Positions 49,283 through 58,352 of a stretch of 58,352 bases of DNA are shown here, piece by piece. Position numbers and translations under genes: made by a program. The notes below the pieces were generated by a model. That model had not been told where the DNA came from and ran no database searches. It was given only the letters and a program-made list of their open reading frames with translations. The stretch is taken from NCBI GenBank assembly GCA_025355965.1, contig JANXYR010000023.1:1-58352 (forward strand), given 5' to 3'. Source of the stretch: Geobacteraceae bacterium. GTDB lineage: Bacteria; Desulfobacterota; Desulfuromonadia; Geobacterales; Pseudopelobacteraceae. Position 1 is the first letter of the stretch; each line of letters starts with the position of its first letter.

Positions 49283-50101
49283 ATGTCACAGGAATCATTA
49301 AACAATACGGCAGTAGCCCGTATGGAAAATTCAGGCGATGCTCTGAATCATGCGGATGCATTGCTGGAAGCTATAACAGCCGACAAAGATCGCCTCTTTA
49401 CCGTCCTACAAAATTGCCGGGAAGAGGTTCTGCTTGCCGCATTGCGCAACCCGGGCCTTGACCCGCAACACATACTGACGCTCCTTAAACGGCGCGGAAT
49501 TGGGCCTCTCATAACCGCAATCTATACGCGTAAATATCTCGTTGAAGCATATTCCGTTAAATTCGCTCTGGTTGCCCATCATGATACTCCGCCTCATATT
49601 GCTCAAGCCCTGCTTCCTCTTCTTTATATTTTCGATCTGTTGAAGCTTTGTCAGATTTCCGGCGTCTCTGCCGATATCCGCTTGGCCGCTGAACGAAAAA
49701 TCGTCCAGCAGATACCAACCCAGCCGCTTGGAAACAAGTTAACGCTGGCGCGGCGCGGAACCGCCGCAATTTTGGATGCGCTGCTCAGAGAAGGTGTGCA
49801 AAATATTCTGGAAGCATGTCTCGACAACCCACATCTGAAGGAGGGTTCTCTGCATCAGTTTTTAGCTTCATCACACGCGACAGCAGAAGCCGTTTCGACA
49901 GTGGCTCGAAACAGCCGATGGAAAAGTCACCCCAATATTCGCCTGGTAATTCTCAAAAATCCTCGTACACCTTTGATTTGGTTCACAACCATATTGCCGG
50001 GACTCTCTGCTGCGACCTTACGCGACCTGCAGTCATCTCCCCGCCTGACATTCGCTCAAAAAGAGTTGGTGCGCCAGGCCCGCTCCGGTTCTCATACATG
50101 A
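49283..50101 (+). CDS. Alpha-helical repeat protein of unknown function
   Basis: 272 residues, nearly all predicted helical, with regularly spaced LLEAIT, VLLAALRNPGLDPQHILTLL, AILDALLREGVQNILEACLD and LRLVILKNPRT-like units. The alternation of short helices with N-P turns resembles HEAT-like scaffolds. No catalytic motif or signal peptide is seen, so it is probably cytosolic. GAGCAGGG lies just upstream of the ATG. The stop overlaps the next gene by 4 nt, so it is co-translated with a secreted NlpC/P60 hydrolase. A regulator or cofactor for that enzyme or for the chemotaxis set is possible. Confidence 0.7.
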   Translation: MSQESLNNTAVARMENSGDALNHADALLEAITADKDRLFTVLQNCREEVLLAALRNPGLDPQHILTLLKRRGIGPLITAIYTRKYLVEAYSVKFALVAHHDTPPHIAQALLPLLYIFDLLKLCQISGVSADIRLAAERKIVQQIPTQPLGNKLTLARRGTAAILDALLREGVQNILEACLDNPHLKEGSLHQFLASSHATAEAVSTVARNSRWKSHPNIRLVILKNPRTPLIWFTTILPGLSAATLRDLQSSPRLTFAQKELVRQARSGSHT

Positions 50102-50979
50102 TGCGAATTATAATTCTTATTATGTTGCTTGGATATTTTTGTCTCATTTCGGCTGAGGCTGCTGAATATGGAGTGGCACTTACTTCAACGCCTGTTTTGA
50201 ACGTCCCTGATTTCAAAGCGGTTTTCGGAGGGACAGACGGACAAAGCCTGAAGAGTGATCGCTGCGGTCAGGTCCGTGAGCTTGAATATATCGCATTGCC
50301 TAGTTCAGTATTCACAATTTTAAAAAAACATCGTTCCGGAACGACAGACATATACCAGGTTGAAACTAAGGAATACGAGGCTTCGCCAAACGTTCGACTG
50401 TATATCGAAGGTCGCTTTATAAAGCTTGAGAAAACCGCCCCCGCACAGCGCAGGCCGTTGTTGCCGCCACGTGAGGAAATCTTGTTGGCACTCAGGGCAT
50501 CTGTTGGGAGTCCTTATGTCTGGGGTGGGAACATTATTGAAGGAGTCCCTGAGCTGGCGACATGGTTCTATAGAGACATCAGGGAGGATGAGAGGAAGAG
50601 GCTTACGCTGGCTGGATTGGATTGTTCAGGGCTATTGTATCATGCTACCGACGGCTGGACTCCTCGTAATACAAGTCAGCTGATTACTTTTGGTAAGGGT
50701 GTGGCAATTGCCGGAAAACAGGCCGCAGAAATTGTGAAGATGCTCCATCCACTTGATTTGATTGTCTGGAATGGCCATGTTATTATTGTGCTGGACCAAC
50801 AGAATGCCATAGAAAGTCGCCTTGAATGTGGTAAACCGCATAACGGCGGTGTGGTGCTGACGCAATTGACTAAGCGAACAACTGAAATCATGCATACGCG
50901 TCAGCCGGCAGATAACTGGCCTACCGGTAAAACAAGACAGGACACGTTTGTTGTCAGGCGCTGGTATGGCCAGAGATAA
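50098..50979 (+). CDS. Secreted NlpC/P60-family cysteine peptidase
   Basis: 293 residues from ATG 50098, overlapping the preceding stop (ATGA). The signal peptide is MMRIIILIMLLGYFCLISAE with cleavage near AEA-AEYG. An SH3-like N-terminal part (about 25-120) precedes the peptidase domain, which has SPYVWGGNI, the nucleophile in AGLDCSGLLYHATDG, and the histidine in DLIVWNGHVIIVLD. These enzymes cut peptide cross-links in peptidoglycan. A longer frame starting at 49816 only overlaps the upstream gene and is rejected. Confidence 0.85.
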   Translation: MMRIIILIMLLGYFCLISAEAAEYGVALTSTPVLNVPDFKAVFGGTDGQSLKSDRCGQVRELEYIALPSSVFTILKKHRSGTTDIYQVETKEYEASPNVRLYIEGRFIKLEKTAPAQRRPLLPPREEILLALRASVGSPYVWGGNIIEGVPELATWFYRDIREDERKRLTLAGLDCSGLLYHATDGWTPRNTSQLITFGKGVAIAGKQAAEIVKMLHPLDLIVWNGHVIIVLDQQNAIESRLECGKPHNGGVVLTQLTKRTTEIMHTRQPADNWPTGKTRQDTFVVRRWYGQR

Positions 50980-51021
50980 ACTGTTCCAGGCGACAAAATA
51001 CACGTTCCAACAAAAAAACAA

Positions 51022-51050
51022 TTGACAGAGATAAAATAGTTGGGTATAAA
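51022..51050 (+). promoter_or_regulatory. Sigma-70 promoter of tRNA-Glu
   Basis: TTGACA (51022-51027) and TATAAA (51045-51050) with the ideal 17-nt spacing, about 63 nt upstream of the tRNA. Confidence 0.75.
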
Positions 51051-51112
51051 ACTCATCCTTCCGCGCTTCATGGGCCTGATTCCTTAAATGGAACAGCGTG
51101 GCAGTTTTATAC

Positions 51113-51190
<78 letters not shown>

Positions 51191-51196
51191 AATTTC

Positions 51197-51233
51197 AAAA
51201 AGGTCACTTTTCGCAAGAGAAGTGACCTTTTTT
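51197..51233. terminator. Terminator after tRNA-Glu
   Basis: AAAAAGGTCACTT (51197-51209) pairs with AAGTGACCTTTTT (51220-51232) around a 10-nt loop and is followed by further T residues. It can also end the minus-strand tetR transcript. Confidence 0.88.
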
Positions 51234-51267
51234 CTTTTGTACTCACTGTTAGTTTCTGCAATCAAAA

Positions 51268-51951
51268 TCAGAGGGTTTTCGAAGAAAAATCTACTCTAAG
51301 TCTTCCGTATAGTTCTTTGTATTTATCAGACACGATACCGTTCAGATATATTCTAACCATTTTTGTAATCAGTTTTTCCAGATCAAATGCTCCATCTGCC
51401 GTACACCACTCAAAAATAGCACCTTTAGCAAGAGTTACCAAGTCTTCCCCTACTTCCATAGTACTAATATCCGGCTGAATAAACCCTTCGTTTTTTGCTA
51501 TTTCAAGATATTTGGCTGATTTTGCAATAAACTTGTTTGAGCTTTCTTGGTAATCTCTTCGAGTGCCTCTAAACTTATTCTTTACGTTATAATAGATACT
51601 CATAAACTCAACGCCGCTTTCCACACAATATTTTGCATATTGAGCATAAAAGAACGCCACCAGTTCAAGCATATTTCTGTCAACCTTATCCTGCTCGAGG
51701 TTGGTTTCGAAATAATTACGAAATGACTCACAATGCAGCCCCACCTTGTTCTGCAAATACTGCAATAACATCTCTTCTTTAGAACTAAAAAAATGGAAAA
51801 AAGTACCGTTCGAAATTTCTGCCATTTCGCATAAATTTTTTACTGTCAAATATTGATGACCATGATTGTTAATTAGCTGTTCAGCAGTGTCAAATATCTT
51901 TTCTCTTGTCTGTCTTGATTTGATTTCGCGCTTGGTTTCCAAAGTATTCAT
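51268..51951 (-). CDS. TetR/AcrR-family transcriptional repressor
   Basis: 227 residues from ATG 51951, set by GGAG 8 nt upstream. The N-terminal helix-turn-helix has REKIFDTAEQLINNHGHQYL and VKNLCEMAEISNGTFFHFFS. The C-terminal ligand domain (about 75-227) is low in recognisable identity, with GAIFEWCTADGAFDLEKLI typical of the family. The gene is AT-rich and divergent from the cytochrome/flavoprotein operon, which it probably represses until an inducer, perhaps the terminal acceptor, binds. An upstream extension of the frame to 52104 covers the promoter region and is not coding. Confidence 0.88.
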   Translation of the reverse strand: MNTLETKREIKSRQTREKIFDTAEQLINNHGHQYLTVKNLCEMAEISNGTFFHFFSSKEEMLLQYLQNKVGLHCESFRNYFETNLEQDKVDRNMLELVAFFYAQYAKYCVESGVEFMSIYYNVKNKFRGTRRDYQESSNKFIAKSAKYLEIAKNEGFIQPDISTMEVGEDLVTLAKGAIFEWCTADGAFDLEKLITKMVRIYLNGIVSDKYKELYGRLRVDFSSKTL

Positions 51952-52042
51952 ATTTTCTCCTATAAATCTAGATATCACATAACCTTGACAATCGACAATT
52001 CCAAAAACTAGATTGTAATCTATTTTTGTATCTAGATTTTGA

Positions 52043-52088
52043 TTGACATACGTTTTTAAATACGTATAAAGTCGAATACAAAGTGTAT
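52043..52088 (+). promoter_or_regulatory. Promoter of the reductase operon with a candidate TetR operator
   Basis: TTGACA (52043-52048), 16-nt spacer, TATAAA (52065-52070). The dyad ATACA-AAG-TGTAT (52076-52088) covers the expected transcription start. TCTAGAT motifs recur at about 51967, 52031 and 52094 in the same region and may be additional sites. Confidence 0.6.
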
Positions 52089-52165
52089 GTGATTCTAGAT
52101 TCAAGTGTCAGACAAGTGATTTGTTGAACCTTTATCAATAAAAAATAATCGTGCAGGAGCTAAAA

Positions 52166-52546
52166 ATGAAAAATTTATTACGGTTCAAGTTTATTGCGAT
52201 GTGCCTTCTTGCTTTTTCTGTAACAGTTTCTATTGCGGCTGTATCAGTTGCAATGACAGCAGAGCTTTTGGAGTCAAAGCATAAGGGCGTTAAGTGTTCG
52301 GTATGTCATGAAAAGGACAATCCAGACTCTCCGCCTAGCAGTGACGGGGCTTGCATGGAGTGTCATGGCAGTCACAAAGATGTTATTGCGTTAACCGCAA
52401 AAAAATCCCCGAATCGTCATCAGTCTGCCCACTCTGAAATGCCCGGTTTTGTAGACCCTTGCATGAATTGCCATAACATGCACAAGCCGTCGGTCCTTTC
52501 ATGTGTAAAATGCCATAAAGACGTCAAGCCAGAACGAGTACCATAA
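52166..52546 (+). CDS. Periplasmic tetrahaem cytochrome c
   Basis: 126 residues from ATG 52166, which has AGGAG 6 nt upstream. A Sec signal peptide (about 1-32) is followed by four CxxCH haem-binding motifs: CSVCH, CMECH, CMNCH and CVKCH. Several extra histidines (HKG, HGSHKD, HQSAHSE, HNMHKP) could be distal ligands. The size and haem pattern fit the cytochrome domain of flavocytochrome c fumarate reductases and the separate cytochrome of two-component systems such as methacrylate reductase. It starts the operon and lies 16 nt before the flavoprotein, so it most likely feeds electrons from the quinone pool into it. Confidence 0.9.
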   Translation: MKNLLRFKFIAMCLLAFSVTVSIAAVSVAMTAELLESKHKGVKCSVCHEKDNPDSPPSSDGACMECHGSHKDVIALTAKKSPNRHQSAHSEMPGFVDPCMNCHNMHKPSVLSCVKCHKDVKPERVP

Positions 52547-52562
52547 CTAAAGGAGGGTAACG

Positions 52563-54017
52563 ATGAATCGGAGAGATTTTGTAAAATTTGCAGCACTAGG
52601 GGCAGTCACTGCTCTGGGAAGCAACACATTAGTAAATGCGGCAAACCTGCCAAAGCCCAAAAAATCTGAAAAGTTTGATGTGGTGGTTATTGGAGCTGGT
52701 TTTTCTGGTTTGATGACGGCCTGCGCTGCGGCGGAAGCGGGCGCAAAAGTGGCTGTTGTTGAAAAAGCTCCATTTGAAAGAACTGGCGGCCTTTCCCGAT
52801 TAACAGGAGGAACATTTATCTTTCCAGCTTCTGAGTCTGAAAGAGATGTGAAGTTGTTTTACGACGCTGTGATGGCAAAAAGTTTAAATCGTGGTAATGG
52901 CGAAATCTGCATGGCCATGTCTCGAAATATCATACCGGGTATAAAATGGCTCCGGAAAATAGGCGTCGAATACACAGATCCTATGCCACAACCGGGCCTT
53001 GTGGGAAAAACCTCCGCTTTCCTCCCATCAGCATACAGAGGTGGTCCTGTTGTTCTGAAAAAACTGAGAGAAGTTTTGGCTGGCATGGGAGGAAAGGTGT
53101 TTCACGATACACGTGTCCGTCAACTTGTGTTTGATGATAATGGAGTTGTGTGTGGTGCACGGGCAATGACACCAGACGGAATGAAGGACTTCTTAGGTGA
53201 AAGGGTTGTCATTGCAGCTGGCGGATATCCAGGCAATAAAGAACTTTTAGAAGCATTCATAGATCCTGACGCAGATATGATGTTGGTCAGGGGAGATATA
53301 AATGCAACGGGTGATGGCCTGATGCTTGCCAAAGAAGCCGGTGCCGCGTGGGTGAATATGGGTGGTTTGCAGTCAATACATATCGCTGCAGTAAGCCCGA
53401 GCAATCCTTCCGCTGGCAATCCGTTTAAATCAGTTATTTACTGCCTTGGGATAAATCAGGATGGTAAGCGCTACGTTGATGAGTCATTGGGGTATGTGTC
53501 TCATGGAAAAGCATCCATGAAACAGCCAGGGCAAAAAGTAGCCCTTGTGTTTGATGAAAATGTATACAAGCAGAATGGAATTCAGTTTGGGGTCAAACTG
53601 TTTGAAGATATAAAGCTGCCCCTGGTTGAAGCTCACTCGCTGGAAGAACTAGCAAAAAAGATAAATGTCCCTGCAAATGAGCTTAAAAAAACTATCGATG
53701 AATTCAATAAAGCTGTTGAGCCAGGCAATAAAGCGCCTAAAGCAATTCCGCCTAAAAGCGAATTTGCCTATAAACTGGATGCACCGAAATACTACGCTTT
53801 TTATCCAATGGTACCCGGAATAACTCTGACATTTGGTGGTATAAAGGTCGACAAATCTGGAAAAGCGCTGGAGGCTGACGGCACTCCTGTCCCAGGTTTG
53901 TATGCGGTTGGTGAAGGTGCAGGCGGTTCATATTATCATGATTATATTGGGGGCGCTTCAATTTCCAACTGTATTTCCTCGGCTTACCGTGTTGGGACGA
54001 CTATTTTTAAAAAGTAA
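52563..54017 (+). CDS. Tat-exported FAD reductase of the fumarate reductase/flavocytochrome c superfamily
   Basis: 484 residues. The N-terminal MNRRDFVKFAALGA is a twin-arginine signal. FAD binding is shown by VVVIGAGFSGLMTACAAAEA (41-60), ATGDGLMLAKEAGA (about 248-261) and the C-terminal GLYAVGEGAGGS. The active-site cap has LQSIHIAAV (His273). Where fumarate reductases carry the proton-donor arginine, this one reads YVSHGKAS (311-318), and where they carry the second carboxylate-binding arginine it reads YYHDYIGG (457-464). A fumarate-type substrate is therefore doubtful; a neutral enone or a monocarboxylate is more likely. AAAGGAGGG precedes the ATG. It would accept electrons from the tetrahaem cytochrome encoded just upstream. 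Confidence 0.88.
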   Translation: MNRRDFVKFAALGAVTALGSNTLVNAANLPKPKKSEKFDVVVIGAGFSGLMTACAAAEAGAKVAVVEKAPFERTGGLSRLTGGTFIFPASESERDVKLFYDAVMAKSLNRGNGEICMAMSRNIIPGIKWLRKIGVEYTDPMPQPGLVGKTSAFLPSAYRGGPVVLKKLREVLAGMGGKVFHDTRVRQLVFDDNGVVCGARAMTPDGMKDFLGERVVIAAGGYPGNKELLEAFIDPDADMMLVRGDINATGDGLMLAKEAGAAWVNMGGLQSIHIAAVSPSNPSAGNPFKSVIYCLGINQDGKRYVDESLGYVSHGKASMKQPGQKVALVFDENVYKQNGIQFGVKLFEDIKLPLVEAHSLEELAKKINVPANELKKTIDEFNKAVEPGNKAPKAIPPKSEFAYKLDAPKYYAFYPMVPGITLTFGGIKVDKSGKALEADGTPVPGLYAVGEGAGGSYYHDYIGGASISNCISSAYRVGTTIFKK

Positions 54018-54031
54018 TTTTATCATGCTTT

Positions 54032-54067
54032 ACCTTAAAAACCCCAAAATTCTGGGGTTTTTAAGGT
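54032..54067 (+). terminator. Hairpin between the flavoprotein and tatA genes
   Basis: A 14-bp stem, ACCTTAAAAACCCC (54032-54045) with GGGGTTTTTAAGGT (54054-54067), and an 8-nt loop. The T-tract is inside the stem, so partial termination or mRNA protection of the upstream pair is as likely as full termination. Confidence 0.6.
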
Positions 54068-54130
54068 TACTCTATTTACAGCGCAATCACTGTAGTAGAT
54101 TTAGATTCTCAAGGCAGAAGGAGGTCGATT

Positions 54131-54304
54131 ATGTTTGGTTTTGGAGTCCCGGAGTTAGCAATAATTGCAGCTATAGTAATGATGGTATTTGGTGTTGGAA
54201 AGTTACCAGAAATTGGCAACTCATTTGGCAAAGCGATCAGTAACTTCAGAAAGGCTTCTGAGGGCAAGGATATGGTTGAACTTGATTCAAAAAAAGATAT
54301 CTGA
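54131..54304 (+). CDS. tatA: TatA/TatE-type twin-arginine translocase subunit
   Basis: 57 residues, short and easily missed. The start MFGFGVPELAIIAAIVMMVF gives the short membrane helix, then comes the hinge FGVGKLPEIG and an amphipathic helix GNSFGKAISNFRKASEG. The F-G-K-L-P and G-x-x-x-G-x-x-I-x-x-F spacing is diagnostic of TatA. AGGAGG lies 6 nt upstream. No tatB or tatC is present. Placement directly after a Tat substrate suggests a dedicated subunit that works with the host TatC, boosting export of the folded FAD enzyme. Confidence 0.88.
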   Translation: MFGFGVPELAIIAAIVMMVFGVGKLPEIGNSFGKAISNFRKASEGKDMVELDSKKDI

Positions 54305-54383
54305 GTTCTAATAATTCACCTGTTCTTTACTGCGTTTATTTATCTGTGACCAACAATATCTCTTTAAAAAAGGAAAAAAACTT

Positions 54384-55409
54384 ATGTTCTCCTGTCTCAA
54401 AAACAATGTAAAAAAATGGCGCACTTTACTTTCTACAACTCTTGCGATCTGCATCATAGGCATCGCAGGTGGTTTACACGCCGCAGAAAACACTTCAACA
54501 ATCTCTGCCAAGATATCAACAGCAGGTGTTATGTCTCAGGAACCACACATCTATAGCATAAACGTTGGTGGCGCGAAAATCACATCCATCTCGGATGGAA
54601 CTATTCCGCTCAATATTCCTAAACTTATGCACGGGAATGCTGCCTTCATGAAGAAGCAGCTAAAAAATTCCTTCTTGTCTGAAGACGTTGAAACTTCTAT
54701 CTACCTATTCCTGATTGAAAAGGATGGCCGTAAAATCCTTGTTGACACAGGGGCAGGTGAGTTGTTGAGAAAGGTAAACATAGGCGGCAAGCTATTTGAT
54801 GGTCTAAAGGCTGCTGGTATTAGCCCAAGTGATATTACGGACATTCTTATCACGCATATCCATCTTGACCATTCTGGTGGATTAACTATTGCTGGTAAAA
54901 GAATGTTTCCAAATGCTGTTGTGCATATCGGGAAACCAGACGTAGATTTTTTTCTTAATCCTGATATAGCGAAAACTTCTACCTATCGCCCAGCAGCTTT
55001 ACCAACTGCTTTTGAAGAAGCGGTGCAGACAGTAAAGCCGTACGTAGATTCAGGGCAAGTCCGTACTTTTGATAAAACTACAGAAATCCTACCTGGCATA
55101 ACTGCAACGCTTCATCCTGGGCATACTCCTGGTTCTGCTTTCTACACACTGGTTAGCAATGAACAGACTATTGTTTTCATGGCTGATACCGTCCATGTCG
55201 CCGAATTACAATTTGCAAATCCGAAGATTACTATTGAGTTTGACTACAATCGGAAGCAGGCAGCAGCCAGCCGCGCCAAGGCTTTTGCTGATTTTTCTCG
55301 TTCCGGCGTACTTGTTGCCGGAGCGCACCTGCCTTATCCAGGGATCGGTCATATCCAGGCAACAGGTAAGTCTTACCGATTTGTGTCAGTGCCTTTTAAT
55401 GATCGTTAA
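54384..55409 (+). CDS. Secreted metallo-beta-lactamase-fold hydrolase
   Basis: 341 residues with a Sec-type signal peptide (about 1-34, helix TLLSTTLAICIIGIAGGLHA). The zinc motif ITHIHLDHSGG (His158, His160, Asp162, His163), a third His in LHPGHTPGS and Asp in FMADTVHV place it in the MBL superfamily. The GHTPGS and IFxMADTVH pattern is like quorum-quenching lactonases and periplasmic MBL hydrolases. It would hydrolyse an ester, lactone or similar group in the periplasm; the substrate is unknown. AAAGG lies upstream of the ATG. Co-location with the reductase suggests it prepares or processes the same compound. Confidence 0.85.
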   Translation: MFSCLKNNVKKWRTLLSTTLAICIIGIAGGLHAAENTSTISAKISTAGVMSQEPHIYSINVGGAKITSISDGTIPLNIPKLMHGNAAFMKKQLKNSFLSEDVETSIYLFLIEKDGRKILVDTGAGELLRKVNIGGKLFDGLKAAGISPSDITDILITHIHLDHSGGLTIAGKRMFPNAVVHIGKPDVDFFLNPDIAKTSTYRPAALPTAFEEAVQTVKPYVDSGQVRTFDKTTEILPGITATLHPGHTPGSAFYTLVSNEQTIVFMADTVHVAELQFANPKITIEFDYNRKQAAASRAKAFADFSRSGVLVAGAHLPYPGIGHIQATGKSYRFVSVPFNDR

Positions 55410-55458
55410 ATGAAGATGGAGAGGACACACCATCGAAATAAATAAGTCATGAAAGAGA

Positions 55459-56277
55459 ATGGAAATGATTAAAATTGATGAAAATAAATGTATCGGATGT
55501 GGACTATGTGCGAAAGATTGTTTCACAAAAGATATAGAAGTGATTGGGCAAAAGGCAAAGTCTAAAAGAATACGATGTATCGAGTGCGGGCATTGTATTG
55601 CAGTCTGTCCTAAAAACGCAATTATATTAGAAGATTATCCTATGTCAGAAATATTAGAATATGAGAAGGGCAAATTTGAGTTAGATGAAGATCAATATTT
55701 ACGGGCACTGAAATACAGAAGAACAATACGGCAGTTTTCGAAAAAACAAGTGGAAACTCAGAAAATCGAAAAAATTATTGAAGCTGGAAGATATTCTCCA
55801 ACAAGTGGAAATCAGCAGAATGTATCCTATTGTGTTGTGAGAGATGACATTGACCCATTAAGAAATATGGCAATTGATGAGCTGAATAAAATAGCCAACC
55901 TTTCAGATGAGGAAAAAGAAAAGCTGAATATATCTTGGTACGGAGATATGTGGAAGCAAATGTATCTGGATTATCATGGTCCGAACAGGAAAGATGGTTT
56001 GTTTTTTGATGCGGGAACCTTGATATTGGTTTTATCAAAATCCGTACAAAATGCATATGTCGCAGCAGCTCATATGGAAACAATGGCGTATGCGCAGGGA
56101 TTAGGAATGTTATATAGCGGATTCTTTGCAAGAGCAGTGGCACATTCTAAAGAAATGAAAGGGTATTTAAAGCTTAATCAGGGGCAAGAAGTATTTGCAT
56201 GTTTAGTAATAGGCTACCCTGGTATTAAGTATCAGCGAACAGTGCCAAGAAAAGAAGCTAAAATAGTTTGGAGATAA
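55459..56277 (+). CDS. Ferredoxin-nitroreductase fusion protein
   Basis: 272 residues. Two 4Fe-4S motifs (CIGCGLCAKDC and CIECGHCIAVCP, about 11-53) precede a nitroreductase domain (about 80-272) with KYRRTIRQFSKKQV, AGRYSPTSGNQQNVSYCVV and YAQGLGMLYSGFFARA. Such proteins take electrons from ferredoxin rather than NADH to reduce nitro, quinone or related groups. The gene is strikingly A-rich compared with the core genes, with codon use like that of Firmicutes, consistent with transfer. It is followed one base later by the yqhD-type gene. Confidence 0.88.
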   Translation: MEMIKIDENKCIGCGLCAKDCFTKDIEVIGQKAKSKRIRCIECGHCIAVCPKNAIILEDYPMSEILEYEKGKFELDEDQYLRALKYRRTIRQFSKKQVETQKIEKIIEAGRYSPTSGNQQNVSYCVVRDDIDPLRNMAIDELNKIANLSDEEKEKLNISWYGDMWKQMYLDYHGPNRKDGLFFDAGTLILVLSKSVQNAYVAAAHMETMAYAQGLGMLYSGFFARAVAHSKEMKGYLKLNQGQEVFACLVIGYPGIKYQRTVPRKEAKIVWR

Positions 56278-56278
56278 T

Positions 56279-57421
56279 ATGAACAACTTCTCGTATGCTA
56301 ATCCGACAGTCATTCAGTTTGGGAAAGGGCAAATCGCTTCTTTAGCTGATTTGATCGATCCTGCCCATAAGATTCTTGTTGTCTATGGTGGCGGCTCCAT
56401 CAAGCGAAACGGGGTCTACGATCAGATTGCAAAAGCTCTGGGCAACCACTCTTTGGCAGAGTTTTCCGGTGTAGAGGCCAACCCCTGTATTGAAACACTG
56501 GATAAGGGGGTAATGCTTGCGCGCAAGGAAAAGGTTACCTTTCTTCTGGCGGTGGGTGGTGGTTCAGTTATTGACGGCTGCAAGTATATTGCCGGGGCAC
56601 TTTGTTACGACGGGCCTGGTTGGGACATCCTGACAGGTAAACATAACGTAACCAATGCCGTGCCCATTGGGGTTGTGCTCACAATTCCTGCTACCGGGTC
56701 GGAATCCAACAGCGGGGCGGTTGTCTCTCGCGCTGAAACACAAGAAAAATGCATTTTCAAATCCCCCGCTGTGCAGCCACGCTTTGCAATCATGGATCCG
56801 GATGTCATGCTGTCTTTGTCTGAACGTCAGCTGGCAAACGGCCTTGTCGATACATTTGTTCATGTATGCGAACAGTATATAACTTGCTCCAGCAAAGCAC
56901 TTGTACAGGACGGTTATGCGGAAACCTTGCTACGCACCATTGTACAACTCGCAGCCAGCTTTCAGCGCGACAACTACCAATGGCGGGCCAACCTTATGTG
57001 GGCCGCGAATCAGGCACTGAACGGGCTTATTGGTCTTGGTATGCCACGTGATTTTGCTACGCATATGATCGGCCATGAACTGACCGCATTATTCGGTATC
57101 GATCATGCTCGATCACTGGCTGTCGTACAGCCGGCCTTGTTACGTTCACAGATAAATGTCAAACGAGCAAAACTAGAACAGATGGGGCGCAACGTCTTTC
57201 AACTTGCGGAAGGCGATGACCTTGCTGAACGTACTATTCAGTCCATCGAAGCCTTGTATTGTTCCGTTGGGGTTGCAACCCGTCTGTCTGCCTATGGTGC
57301 CACTGCCGCGGATATAGAAAACGTGATCGTACAATTGAAAAAACACGGCATGGATAAGCTAGGTGAACATCAAGCAATCACCCCTGCCGTGAGCAGGGAA
57401 ATTCTCACCAGTGCCATGTAA
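56279..57421 (+). CDS. yqhD: YqhD-type NADPH-dependent alcohol dehydrogenase/aldehyde reductase
   Basis: 380 residues, colinear with E. coli YqhD: MNNFSYANPTVIQFGKGQIA, VTFLLAVGGGSVIDGCKYIA, TIPATGSESNSGAVVSR, metal ligands in GLVDTFVHVCEQY and THMIGHELTALFGIDHARSL. The protein reduces aldehydes, including short reactive ones, with NADPH. The start is one base after the nitroreductase stop, so they are co-translated. A role in detoxifying or reducing an aldehyde linked to the periplasmic reductase is possible. Its base composition is closer to average than that of its immediate neighbour. Confidence 0.92.
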   Translation: MNNFSYANPTVIQFGKGQIASLADLIDPAHKILVVYGGGSIKRNGVYDQIAKALGNHSLAEFSGVEANPCIETLDKGVMLARKEKVTFLLAVGGGSVIDGCKYIAGALCYDGPGWDILTGKHNVTNAVPIGVVLTIPATGSESNSGAVVSRAETQEKCIFKSPAVQPRFAIMDPDVMLSLSERQLANGLVDTFVHVCEQYITCSSKALVQDGYAETLLRTIVQLAASFQRDNYQWRANLMWAANQALNGLIGLGMPRDFATHMIGHELTALFGIDHARSLAVVQPALLRSQINVKRAKLEQMGRNVFQLAEGDDLAERTIQSIEALYCSVGVATRLSAYGATAADIENVIVQLKKHGMDKLGEHQAITPAVSREILTSAM

Positions 57422-57671
57422 TAGTATATGGTAGGTCAGTTCTCGAAAGGTTTCCGTAGGCCGAAGATGTTGCCCTTTCTGGTCTCTTGTCGGGAGGGGA
57501 ACACGTACTCGCTCGACGTTGTCCGAGGTTCCGGTCTCTCCGATCCATTTCCGGCACAGGGCCTTCCGATCTGCGATGAAACCTTACCCATGATTGTTGT
57601 CGGTTATAGTGGTTTGTAGAAGTAGATGCTCGGATTTGCTGCTGTTTAGCCAGAAAGGACGACGTCTCAAC
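57422..57671. other. Intergenic region with no supported gene
   Basis: 250 bases between the yqhD-type gene and the shikimate-dehydrogenase-like gene. Short frames occur on both strands (for example plus 57428-57619), but none has a ribosome binding site or recognisable motif. It may hold a decayed gene or the promoter of the next gene. AAAGGAC at 57654-57660 is a possible, somewhat distant Shine-Dalgarno sequence for it. Confidence 0.4.
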
Positions 57672-58352
57672 ATGATTACCGGAAAGACCAAGCTTTATGC
57701 CATCATCGCCGACCCCATTTCCCACGTCCGCACACCAGAGGTGTTCAATGAGCTTTTCTCAATGAACTGCTGTGATGCGGTTCTTGTTCCAATACAGGTT
57801 GCTCCTGAGGGGCTTGAGGCCGTCCTGACCGCTTTTCGTACCATGAAGAATCTAGGAGGTTTTGTCACGACGGTTCCGCACAAGACTGCGGTCACCGCCC
57901 TCTGTGATGAACTTGGCGATGCCGGGCGTGCAATTGGTGCCGTTAATGCGGTGCGACGGGAAGCGGATGGAAGGCTGATCGGTAACATGTTTGACGGTGC
58001 TGGTTTTGTAGCTGGGTTGCGCTCCCAGGGGTACGATCCGGTTGGTCGCCGGGCATTGCTTATAGGTGCGGGCGGTGCAGCCGCAGCCATCGCTTTTGCT
58101 CTGGCAGAGGCTGGCGTAGCATCCCTGACGGTTGCCAACCGTACCCGTTCGAAGGCCGAAGAGATTGCGATGCGAGTAGACAAATTCTTTCCAGATCGGC
58201 CGATTATGGTGGGAAATGCAGATCCGACCGGTCACGATCTGGTGATAAACGCCACCTCGCTCGGTCTGAAAGCTGATGATCCGCTGCCGATTGATACCAC
58301 AAGGTTGACACCCGCCATGACCGTTGCCGAAATCATTATGAAGCCAGAAACC
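57672..58352 (+). CDS. Shikimate dehydrogenase-like protein (AroE family), 3' end outside window
   Basis: 227 residues visible. The shikimate site reads ISHVRTPEVFNELF, a variant of the SKSPxxHN motif of AroE. The catalytic lysine is in TTVPHK. The NAD(P) motif is LIGAGGAAAAIAFALAEAG with the NRT that usually signals NADP. The usual N-T-D-G-x-G reads NMFDGAGF, a form seen in the Sdh-like subgroup associated with catabolic clusters rather than in biosynthetic AroE. It may therefore act on shikimate, quinate or a related hydroxy acid. The reading frame is open to the window end. Confidence 0.85.
   Translation, partial: MITGKTKLYAIIADPISHVRTPEVFNELFSMNCCDAVLVPIQVAPEGLEAVLTAFRTMKNLGGFVTTVPHKTAVTALCDELGDAGRAIGAVNAVRREADGRLIGNMFDGAGFVAGLRSQGYDPVGRRALLIGAGGAAAAIAFALAEAGVASLTVANRTRSKAEEIAMRVDKFFPDRPIMVGNADPTGHDLVINATSLGLKADDPLPIDTTRLTPAMTVAEIIMKPET

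Follow-up and report, generated by a model that had tools for sequence, protein, structure and literature searches.

A tetrahaem cytochrome and Tat flavoprotein pair of a TcuA-related clade as a candidate periplasmic C=C reductase in a Geobacteraceae genome

Does a tetrahaem cytochrome gene followed by the gene of an exported flavoprotein belong to a larger respiratory system, or does such a pair stand alone, and on which kind of substrate would it act? This question is raised by a 58,352-nucleotide stretch of DNA from a Geobacteraceae bacterium (positions 1 to 58,352 of contig JANXYR010000023.1, assembly GCA_025355965.1; hereafter the window). An initial interpretation made from the letters alone (the sequence-only reading) had seen in it a tetrahaem cytochrome, a twin-arginine translocation (Tat) flavoprotein and a tatA gene behind a TetR-controlled promoter, together with genes for an MBL-fold hydrolase, a ferredoxin-nitroreductase and a YqhD-like alcohol dehydrogenase. 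Scans for open reading frames (ORFs) and Pfam domains recovered every one of these genes and thus bore out the gene calls (Table 1). The reading that we favour, with moderate confidence, is that positions 52166-54017 encode a stand-alone two-subunit periplasmic reductase of C=C bonds, horizontally acquired, whose flavoprotein belongs to a TcuA-related clade and is fed by the tetrahaem partner. The analysis supports the earlier view in so far as cytochrome and flavoprotein form a split pair that is probably exported and probably acts as a reductase, with the signal types judged by eye.

Of 7999 candidates scored in the protein search, 182 reached E <= 1e-40; the best homologues, P0002 and P0003, matched at 69% and 58%, followed by others at about 54%, and several homologues carried no more specific name than 'flavocytochrome c' or 'FAD-dependent oxidoreductase'. 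In a tree of 62 rows, from which L003, L004, L009, L011 and L012 were omitted (an earlier tree omitted L009, L011 and L012) and which did not include Mrd, the window protein fell into a clade of 41 rows with a support of 100/99, nearest to P0002 and P0003 (100/100). The fused flavocytochromes of the window's kin formed, with Fcc3, Ifc3 and UrdA, a separate group without the window protein (99/94), and the KstD rows lay far outside the window clade. Five TcuA-like rows, scoring 478.6, 504.6, 531, 571.6 and 592.5 bits and all above the cut-off of 369, grouped at 100/100 and joined the window clade and L053 at 99/97. The sequence-only reading had held the locus to be a candidate for an undescribed system, and the flavoprotein does lie outside the characterised clades placed in this tree (Fcc3/Ifc3/UrdA, with Mrd not among the rows). 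Among the best 25 of 97 NCBIfam matches, no family exceeded its cut-off for the window protein; the best-scoring one was NF006130 (TcuA), with 231.9 bits against the curated 369, a threshold that its clade kin likewise stayed below (P0002, 239.1; L031, 264.9; L035, 259.2). These comparisons suggest that the flavoprotein clade is unnamed and TcuA-related, and distinct from the fumarate, urocanate and methacrylate reductases. A cytochrome-linked TcuA-like enzyme was not described among the titles and abstract starts listed in the literature searches, which mostly did not cover subscription journals.

In the alignments, which were made with L-INS-i and were unguided, the columns of Fcc3 Arg402, His504 and Arg544 hold Tyr311, Thr421 and Tyr461 of the window flavoprotein, and the proton-donor arginine and the carboxylate-binding arginine of Fcc3 and UrdA are absent from it. 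Seven duplicate rows were removed before the residue alignment. Over 119 homologues (the best 120 of the 182, minus the window's own protein), Tyr311 occurred in 117, Thr421 in 114 and Tyr461 in 118. Arg243 was found in 41/41 clade rows and 5/5 TcuA-like rows, and in 0/12 Fcc3/UrdA and 0/2 KstD rows; His273 was present in 40/41 clade rows and in none of the TcuA-like, Fcc3/UrdA or KstD rows. All five TcuA-like rows also share Tyr311, Thr421, Tyr461 and Lys398. Judged by these alignments, the signature of the clade is Arg243, His273, Tyr311, Thr421 and Tyr461, that is, a TcuA-like set plus a histidine of its own.

The flavoprotein has the same Pfam domain as the fumarate reductases, and the sequence-only reading had likened the pair to methacrylate reductase. 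The layout indeed resembles mrd/mcc of Geobacter sulfurreducens AM-1, likewise a split Tat flavoprotein with a c-type cytochrome gene and likewise acquired horizontally in a Geobacter (PMC4427408; this and the papers cited below are drawn on from excerpts). However, Mrd retains the Fcc3-type R353, H461 and R501 (PMC4427408), and UrdA carries R411, H520 and R560, its R411A and R560A variants being inactive (PMC7921117), whereas Tyr/Thr/Tyr replace all three residues in the window flavoprotein. Moreover, the order in AM-1 is mrd then mcc, here cytochrome then flavoprotein, and Mcc has 7 haem motifs against 4 in the window cytochrome; although 4 haems were measured in Mcc (PMC4427408), its 7 motifs mean that it is not a plain tetrahaem protein. 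With Fcc3, Ifc3 and UrdA the window enzyme shares the fold, and with Fcc3 and Ifc3 also a tetrahaem domain as electron feed, but Fcc3 and Ifc3 are fused while the window pair is split, the catalytic residues differ and the clades are separate. The likeness to methacrylate reductase therefore stood for the layout and failed for the catalytic residues, and we consider it very unlikely that the pair is a split methacrylate-, acrylate- or cinnamate-type reductase of the Mrd/UrdA/Fcc3 clade. As candidate activities, methacrylate, acrylate, urocanate and fumarate reduction were all disfavoured by the catalytic residues and the tree.

The proposed electron partner carries CXXCH motifs at residues 44, 63, 99 and 113 and five other histidines, which would be enough for four bis-His haems, and its export would run via Sec. 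The flavoprotein begins with MNRRDFVKFAALG, in which a Tat motif (MNRRDFVKF) was recognised by eye, and the genome holds one TatC gene, located elsewhere, so that export of the flavoprotein is plausible. Homologues of the cytochrome are the cytochromes that precede the flavoprotein in 9 relatives and, at E 3e-9, the fused flavocytochrome of the window's own genome. We compared 19 clade loci, 17 from genome scans and two (L131, L135) from a scan of the order of G345, in which 6/155 genomes matched at E <= 1e-100, four of them identical to earlier loci. The duplicates were L048 and L127 of L033, L132 and L136 of L031, L133 and L137 of L034, L134 and L138 of L032, and L139 of L035. The loci span up to 8 kb on each side (much less in L040, L046, L131 and L135), and in L040, L046 and L135 the DNA upstream is too short for a cytochrome to be judged. 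A multihaem cytochrome with four to six CXXCH motifs lay directly upstream of the flavoprotein in 9 of the 16 judgeable loci (L031, L032, L034, L035, L037, L039, L045, L047 and L131), which include Thermodesulfobacteriota, Pseudomonadota and Bacillota. A search across 395 genomes of the window's phylum gave matches at E <= 1e-60 in 13, the window's own included; besides the own genome only G345 reached a clade-level score (870 bits), the rest scoring at most 252. A first scan of genome contigs with a single-protein query confirmed no relative, and no plasmid relatives were found at E 1e-60.

In three of the 19 loci (L035, L041 and L042), a gene for a ferric-reductase-like transmembrane NAD(P)H oxidoreductase lay 612, 512 and 164 bases, respectively, from the flavoprotein gene; the other 16 had none. 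Such proteins are a possible alternative or additional electron feed, directed from the cell outward. Two further peculiarities of the relatives concern the flavoprotein itself. In Pigmentiphaga kullae (L044:6297-9386) it is fused behind an N-terminal AMP-binding, acyl-CoA-ligase-like domain, which would probably make it a cytosolic version, and it may act on a CoA ester or on an acid awaiting activation. In L038 (9608-11149) and L036 (4759-6315), a TcuA-family gene lies close to the clade flavoprotein gene, a possible link in substrate.

Cytochrome, flavoprotein and tatA genes all point away from the divergent TetR gene, and of the 9 CTAGATW matches in the window, 6 lie in the gap between the TetR and cytochrome genes, where they make up four sites. 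When the gap was shuffled 20,000 times at constant composition, no shuffle reached 6 matches (mean 0.11), a value that is not a fair probability because the motif was picked after the gap had been read; over the whole window, the 9 matches compare with a chance mean of 8.6. Promoter matches were not enriched (15 versus 13.9 in shuffles), and the TetR protein reached no NCBIfam cut-off. Control of the pair by the TetR regulator is plausible. Hairpin sites in the region numbered 9 against 6.4 expected, a count that alone means little, but the stems after the flavoprotein (15 pairs) and after tRNA-Glu (16 pairs) were by far the longest listed, all others having 5 or 6. The former would likely end a two-gene unit. 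A perfect stem of at least 13 within 150 bases past the flavoprotein stop was found in five of the 19 loci (L031, L032, L033, L034 and L038), and stems of 8 or 9 in five others.

Table 1. Features of the variable segment and its flanks, in order of position.
Feature	Coordinates	Strand	Evidence and remarks
tRNA-Glu	51113..51190	+	ARAGORN; left edge of variable segment; absent from the sequence-only reading
Hairpin after tRNA-Glu	51197-51232		16 pairs
TetR-family regulator	51268..51951	-	Pfam TetR_N 7e-9; divergent; likely controls the pair
Four CTAGAT(A/T) sites	51965..52101		Between the divergent genes; candidate TetR operators
Tetrahaem cytochrome c3	52166..52546	+	126 aa; Pfam Cytochrom_c3_2 E 2e-12; electron partner subunit
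Tat-motif FAD oxidoreductase	52563..54017	+	484 aa; Pfam FAD_binding_2 E 2e-41; catalytic subunit
Intrinsic-terminator-like hairpin	54032..54067	+	15 pairs; between flavoprotein and tatA; absent from the sequence-only reading
tatA paralogue	54131..54304	+	57 aa; Pfam TatA_B_E E 8e-16; neighbour
MBL-fold hydrolase	54384..55409	+	Signal-like N-terminus by eye; AidB-lactonase-like below cut-off; neighbour
Ferredoxin-nitroreductase fusion	55459..56277	+	Pfam; neighbour
YqhD-like iron alcohol dehydrogenase	56279..57421	+	Pfam Fe-ADH; NF011717 444 bits versus cut-off 645; neighbour
Shikimate-dehydrogenase-like gene	57672..58352	+	Named by eye; cut by contig end at 58352; right flank

The sequence-only reading had gone further and counted a dedicated TatA, the MBL hydrolase, the nitroreductase and YqhD as parts of the system. 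Such a system would comprise six or seven co-regulated genes, in which TatA would export the flavoprotein and the accessory enzymes would process the product. All of these genes indeed lie on the plus strand behind one TetR-linked region, the MBL protein looks secreted, the nitroreductase and YqhD are likewise reductases, and in two congeners the right-flank gene has old yellow enzyme, YqhD-like or ferredoxin-nitroreductase genes around it. Nevertheless, the claim of a dedicated TatA did not survive: the 15-pair hairpin precedes tatA, no tatA adjoins the flavoprotein in any of the 19 clade loci (L045 carries one about 6 kb off), and the genome holds three TatA/B/E-family genes, this one included; at the DNA level it is 73% identical to the one on contig C86. 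Nor did relatives of the MBL, YqhD and TetR proteins occur in the 19 loci at E <= 1e-3, and the nitroreductase query gave there only weak matches of 18 to 28 bits (L031, L033 and L045), the L033 ORF being ferredoxin-like by eye. Among the 57 other near genomes, none had a flavoprotein match above 160 bits (self 1086), and hence none a clade flavoprotein, and just 2 had an MBL relative (39%). Ferredoxin-nitroreductase matches at E <= 1e-15 were present in 36 of 58 genomes, own included, the best other full-length match being 32% and one partial match 35%. The GC content is also unequal (TetR 35.8, cytochrome 44.4, flavoprotein 45.2, tatA 38.5, MBL 43.8, nitroreductase 35.9, YqhD 50.0 and window 50.4%). 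Thus, the six genes occurred together in no genome searched (the contigs of P0002 and P0003 were outside the search), while the cytochrome/flavoprotein pair did recur, and a single co-regulated system appears improbable to us. The genes for TatA, the MBL hydrolase, the nitroreductase and YqhD probably entered this variable region by separate acquisitions and are no more than neighbours of the pair.

Returning to the stand-alone pair, the cytochrome would take electrons from a menaquinol-linked periplasmic haem pool and pass them to the FAD of its partner, from which one of the carbons in an activated C=C bond would receive a hydride. Tyr311, replacing the arginine of Fcc3, would donate the proton, and Tyr461, Arg243 and Thr421 would grip the oxygen group of the substrate; the TetR regulator with its four operator-like sites would probably induce the pair when the substrate is present. 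An aconitate-type unsaturated carboxylate or an enone would be the likeliest substrate, ahead of fumarate, urocanate and methacrylate. The aconitate-like acid is suggested by the closeness of the clade to TcuA and by its TcuA-like residue set, TcuA converting tricarballylate to cis-aconitate according to the title of a reference in PMC10468695 and passing its electrons through TcuB, an FADH2:quinone oxidoreductase (PMC10468695). From TcuA the window enzyme differs not only in its score but also in its Tat motif and tetrahaem partner.

The active site of KstD includes Gly491 and Tyr119, of which the former aligns to Gly464 and the latter falls on a gap. Two tyrosines of the KstD1 active site, Tyr318 as proton acceptor and Tyr487 as keto-group binder (PMC8220720), align with Tyr311 and Tyr461 of the window flavoprotein (with numbering that assumes a 20-residue chain offset). 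A ketone-only reading built on these tyrosines was dropped to one of the two substrate guesses: the TcuA-like proteins carry the same tyrosines, and Arg243 and Thr421, common to the TcuA-like rows, have no equivalent in the two KstD rows, which weakens it. Cyclohexanone dehydrogenase, compared by description only, also uses tyrosines, its ketone being bound by Tyr570 and Gly574 (PMC10966990). The two-gene Cgr1/Cgr2 system of Eggerthella lenta is likewise a cytochrome with a Tat flavoprotein; its substrate is an alpha,beta-unsaturated lactone, which it reduces, and its residues deviate from those of fumarate reductase (PMC5953540). Yet the score with the Cgr1 model NF051471 is 25.9 against a cut-off of 340 bits, and Cgr2, again compared by description only, requires a [4Fe-4S] cluster and has closest homologues less than 28% identical (PMC5953540).

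The direction of the reaction also has to be weighed. Cytochromes of the c3 type are of low potential, and couples of saturated and unsaturated carboxylates or ketones lie near or above zero mV. Together with the outward-feeding neighbours in three relatives, the usually low c3 potential argues for reduction. The serious, if unlikely, rival is that the same pair works as a periplasmic dehydrogenase, which desaturates a C-C bond and sends the electrons through the cytochrome to metals. Many Geobacteraceae and their kin reduce metals, and the kin of the host, by named phosphoenolpyruvate carboxykinase homologues, include Geobacteraceae, Desulfuromonadaceae, Geotalea and Oryzomonas. Furthermore, the best-scoring curated kin, TcuA, oxidises tricarballylate (reference title in PMC10468695), KstD1, whose two tyrosines align, is a dehydrogenase (PMC8220720), and cyclohexanone dehydrogenase likewise desaturates. 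It is the potentials and the ferric-reductase-like neighbours in 3/19 loci that favour reduction over this alternative.

Several observations weigh against the reading as a stand-alone, TcuA-related reductase. Its substrate and direction were inferred, and by analogy with TcuA and KstD, which act as dehydrogenases, the pair could run in reverse. Seven of the 16 judgeable relatives are without an adjacent cytochrome (L033, L036, L038 and L041-L044). Tyr/Thr/Tyr is also found in TcuA-like proteins, so that these residues alone do not mean a ketone substrate, and the sister group is not firm, as L053 joins TcuA at 72/18 only. In the AlphaFold model (mean predicted local distance difference test score, pLDDT, 76), the active-site loops at 310-320 and 419-424 have a pLDDT below 50, and the residues are not placeable from the model. 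With regard to the two-gene unit, no stem of at least 7 followed the flavoprotein stop in 9/19 loci and a long one (at least 13) did so in only 3/9 pair loci. As the stem is absent from many relatives, a terminator at this place is not general among them, and read-through from the pair into tatA may occur. A Foldseek search with the model ranked UrdA and Fcc3 first, then KstD, 3-ketosteroid-delta4-dehydrogenase and cyclohexanone dehydrogenase; the predicted fold thus agrees with the family and does not decide the substrate.

The locus appears to be a variant of the split flavocytochrome c and not a new system. Only tentatively do we suggest an undescribed class of periplasmic respiratory reductase, which would be tetrahaem-fed, would use tyrosine and not arginine as proton donor, and would serve to respire a new aconitate-like or enone acceptor in at least three phyla as a mobile two-gene cassette. 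If true, this would be a second proton-donor solution in a textbook enzyme family. Environmental anaerobes may respire many organic electron acceptors still to be discovered, and the distinct, nearly invariant catalytic set of the clade, its frequent cytochrome partner and the two-gene size make the idea directly testable.

As to how the pair arrived, its horizontal gain beside tRNA-Glu is the best reading of the sequence data, since the 57 other near genomes do not exceed 160 bits and the GC content of the pair is 44-45% versus 50% in the window. The tRNA-Glu region, or at minimum the tRNA, was matched in 57/58 genomes, own included. Among 19 fetched tRNA-Glu loci of other genomes (L144-L162), five of which hold less than 450 bases downstream, an integrase-like ORF followed the tRNA in seven by motif, one of them Pfam-confirmed, and tRNA-Glu therefore appears to be a site of frequent integration in the genus. 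The repeat search over 50900-58352 gave no convincing attachment repeats. On the other side, the right-flank shikimate-dehydrogenase-like protein is 93-94% identical in two congeners, and both share DNA with the window from 57647 onward; both flanks are thus those of the genus, an argument against a chimeric contig. Between these flanks, the gene-by-gene variation in GC content looks like a mosaic of acquisitions.

Some minor features surround the segment. Before the tRNA, the ORFs at 49816-50979 and 49283-50101 had no Pfam match at E <= 0.001. The 225 bases between YqhD and the congeneric flank (57422-57646) matched none of the other loci compared and are perhaps a remnant of an insertion. 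In the congeners G025 (L123) and G017 (L124), the right-flank gene lies amid genes for old yellow enzyme, YqhD with an AraC regulator, an FMN-reductase-like protein and ferredoxin-nitroreductase (partly confirmed), a region that seems to be a variable cluster of reductases for carbonyls and electrophiles. Elsewhere in the window's own genome, G000:C79:1117-2898 (L126) encodes a fused tetrahaem flavocytochrome with intact Fcc3-type residues, and C73 (L066) and C42 (L069) encode vinyl-phenol-reductase-like flavoproteins, which score 345 and 349 bits, respectively, of the 600-bit cut-off.

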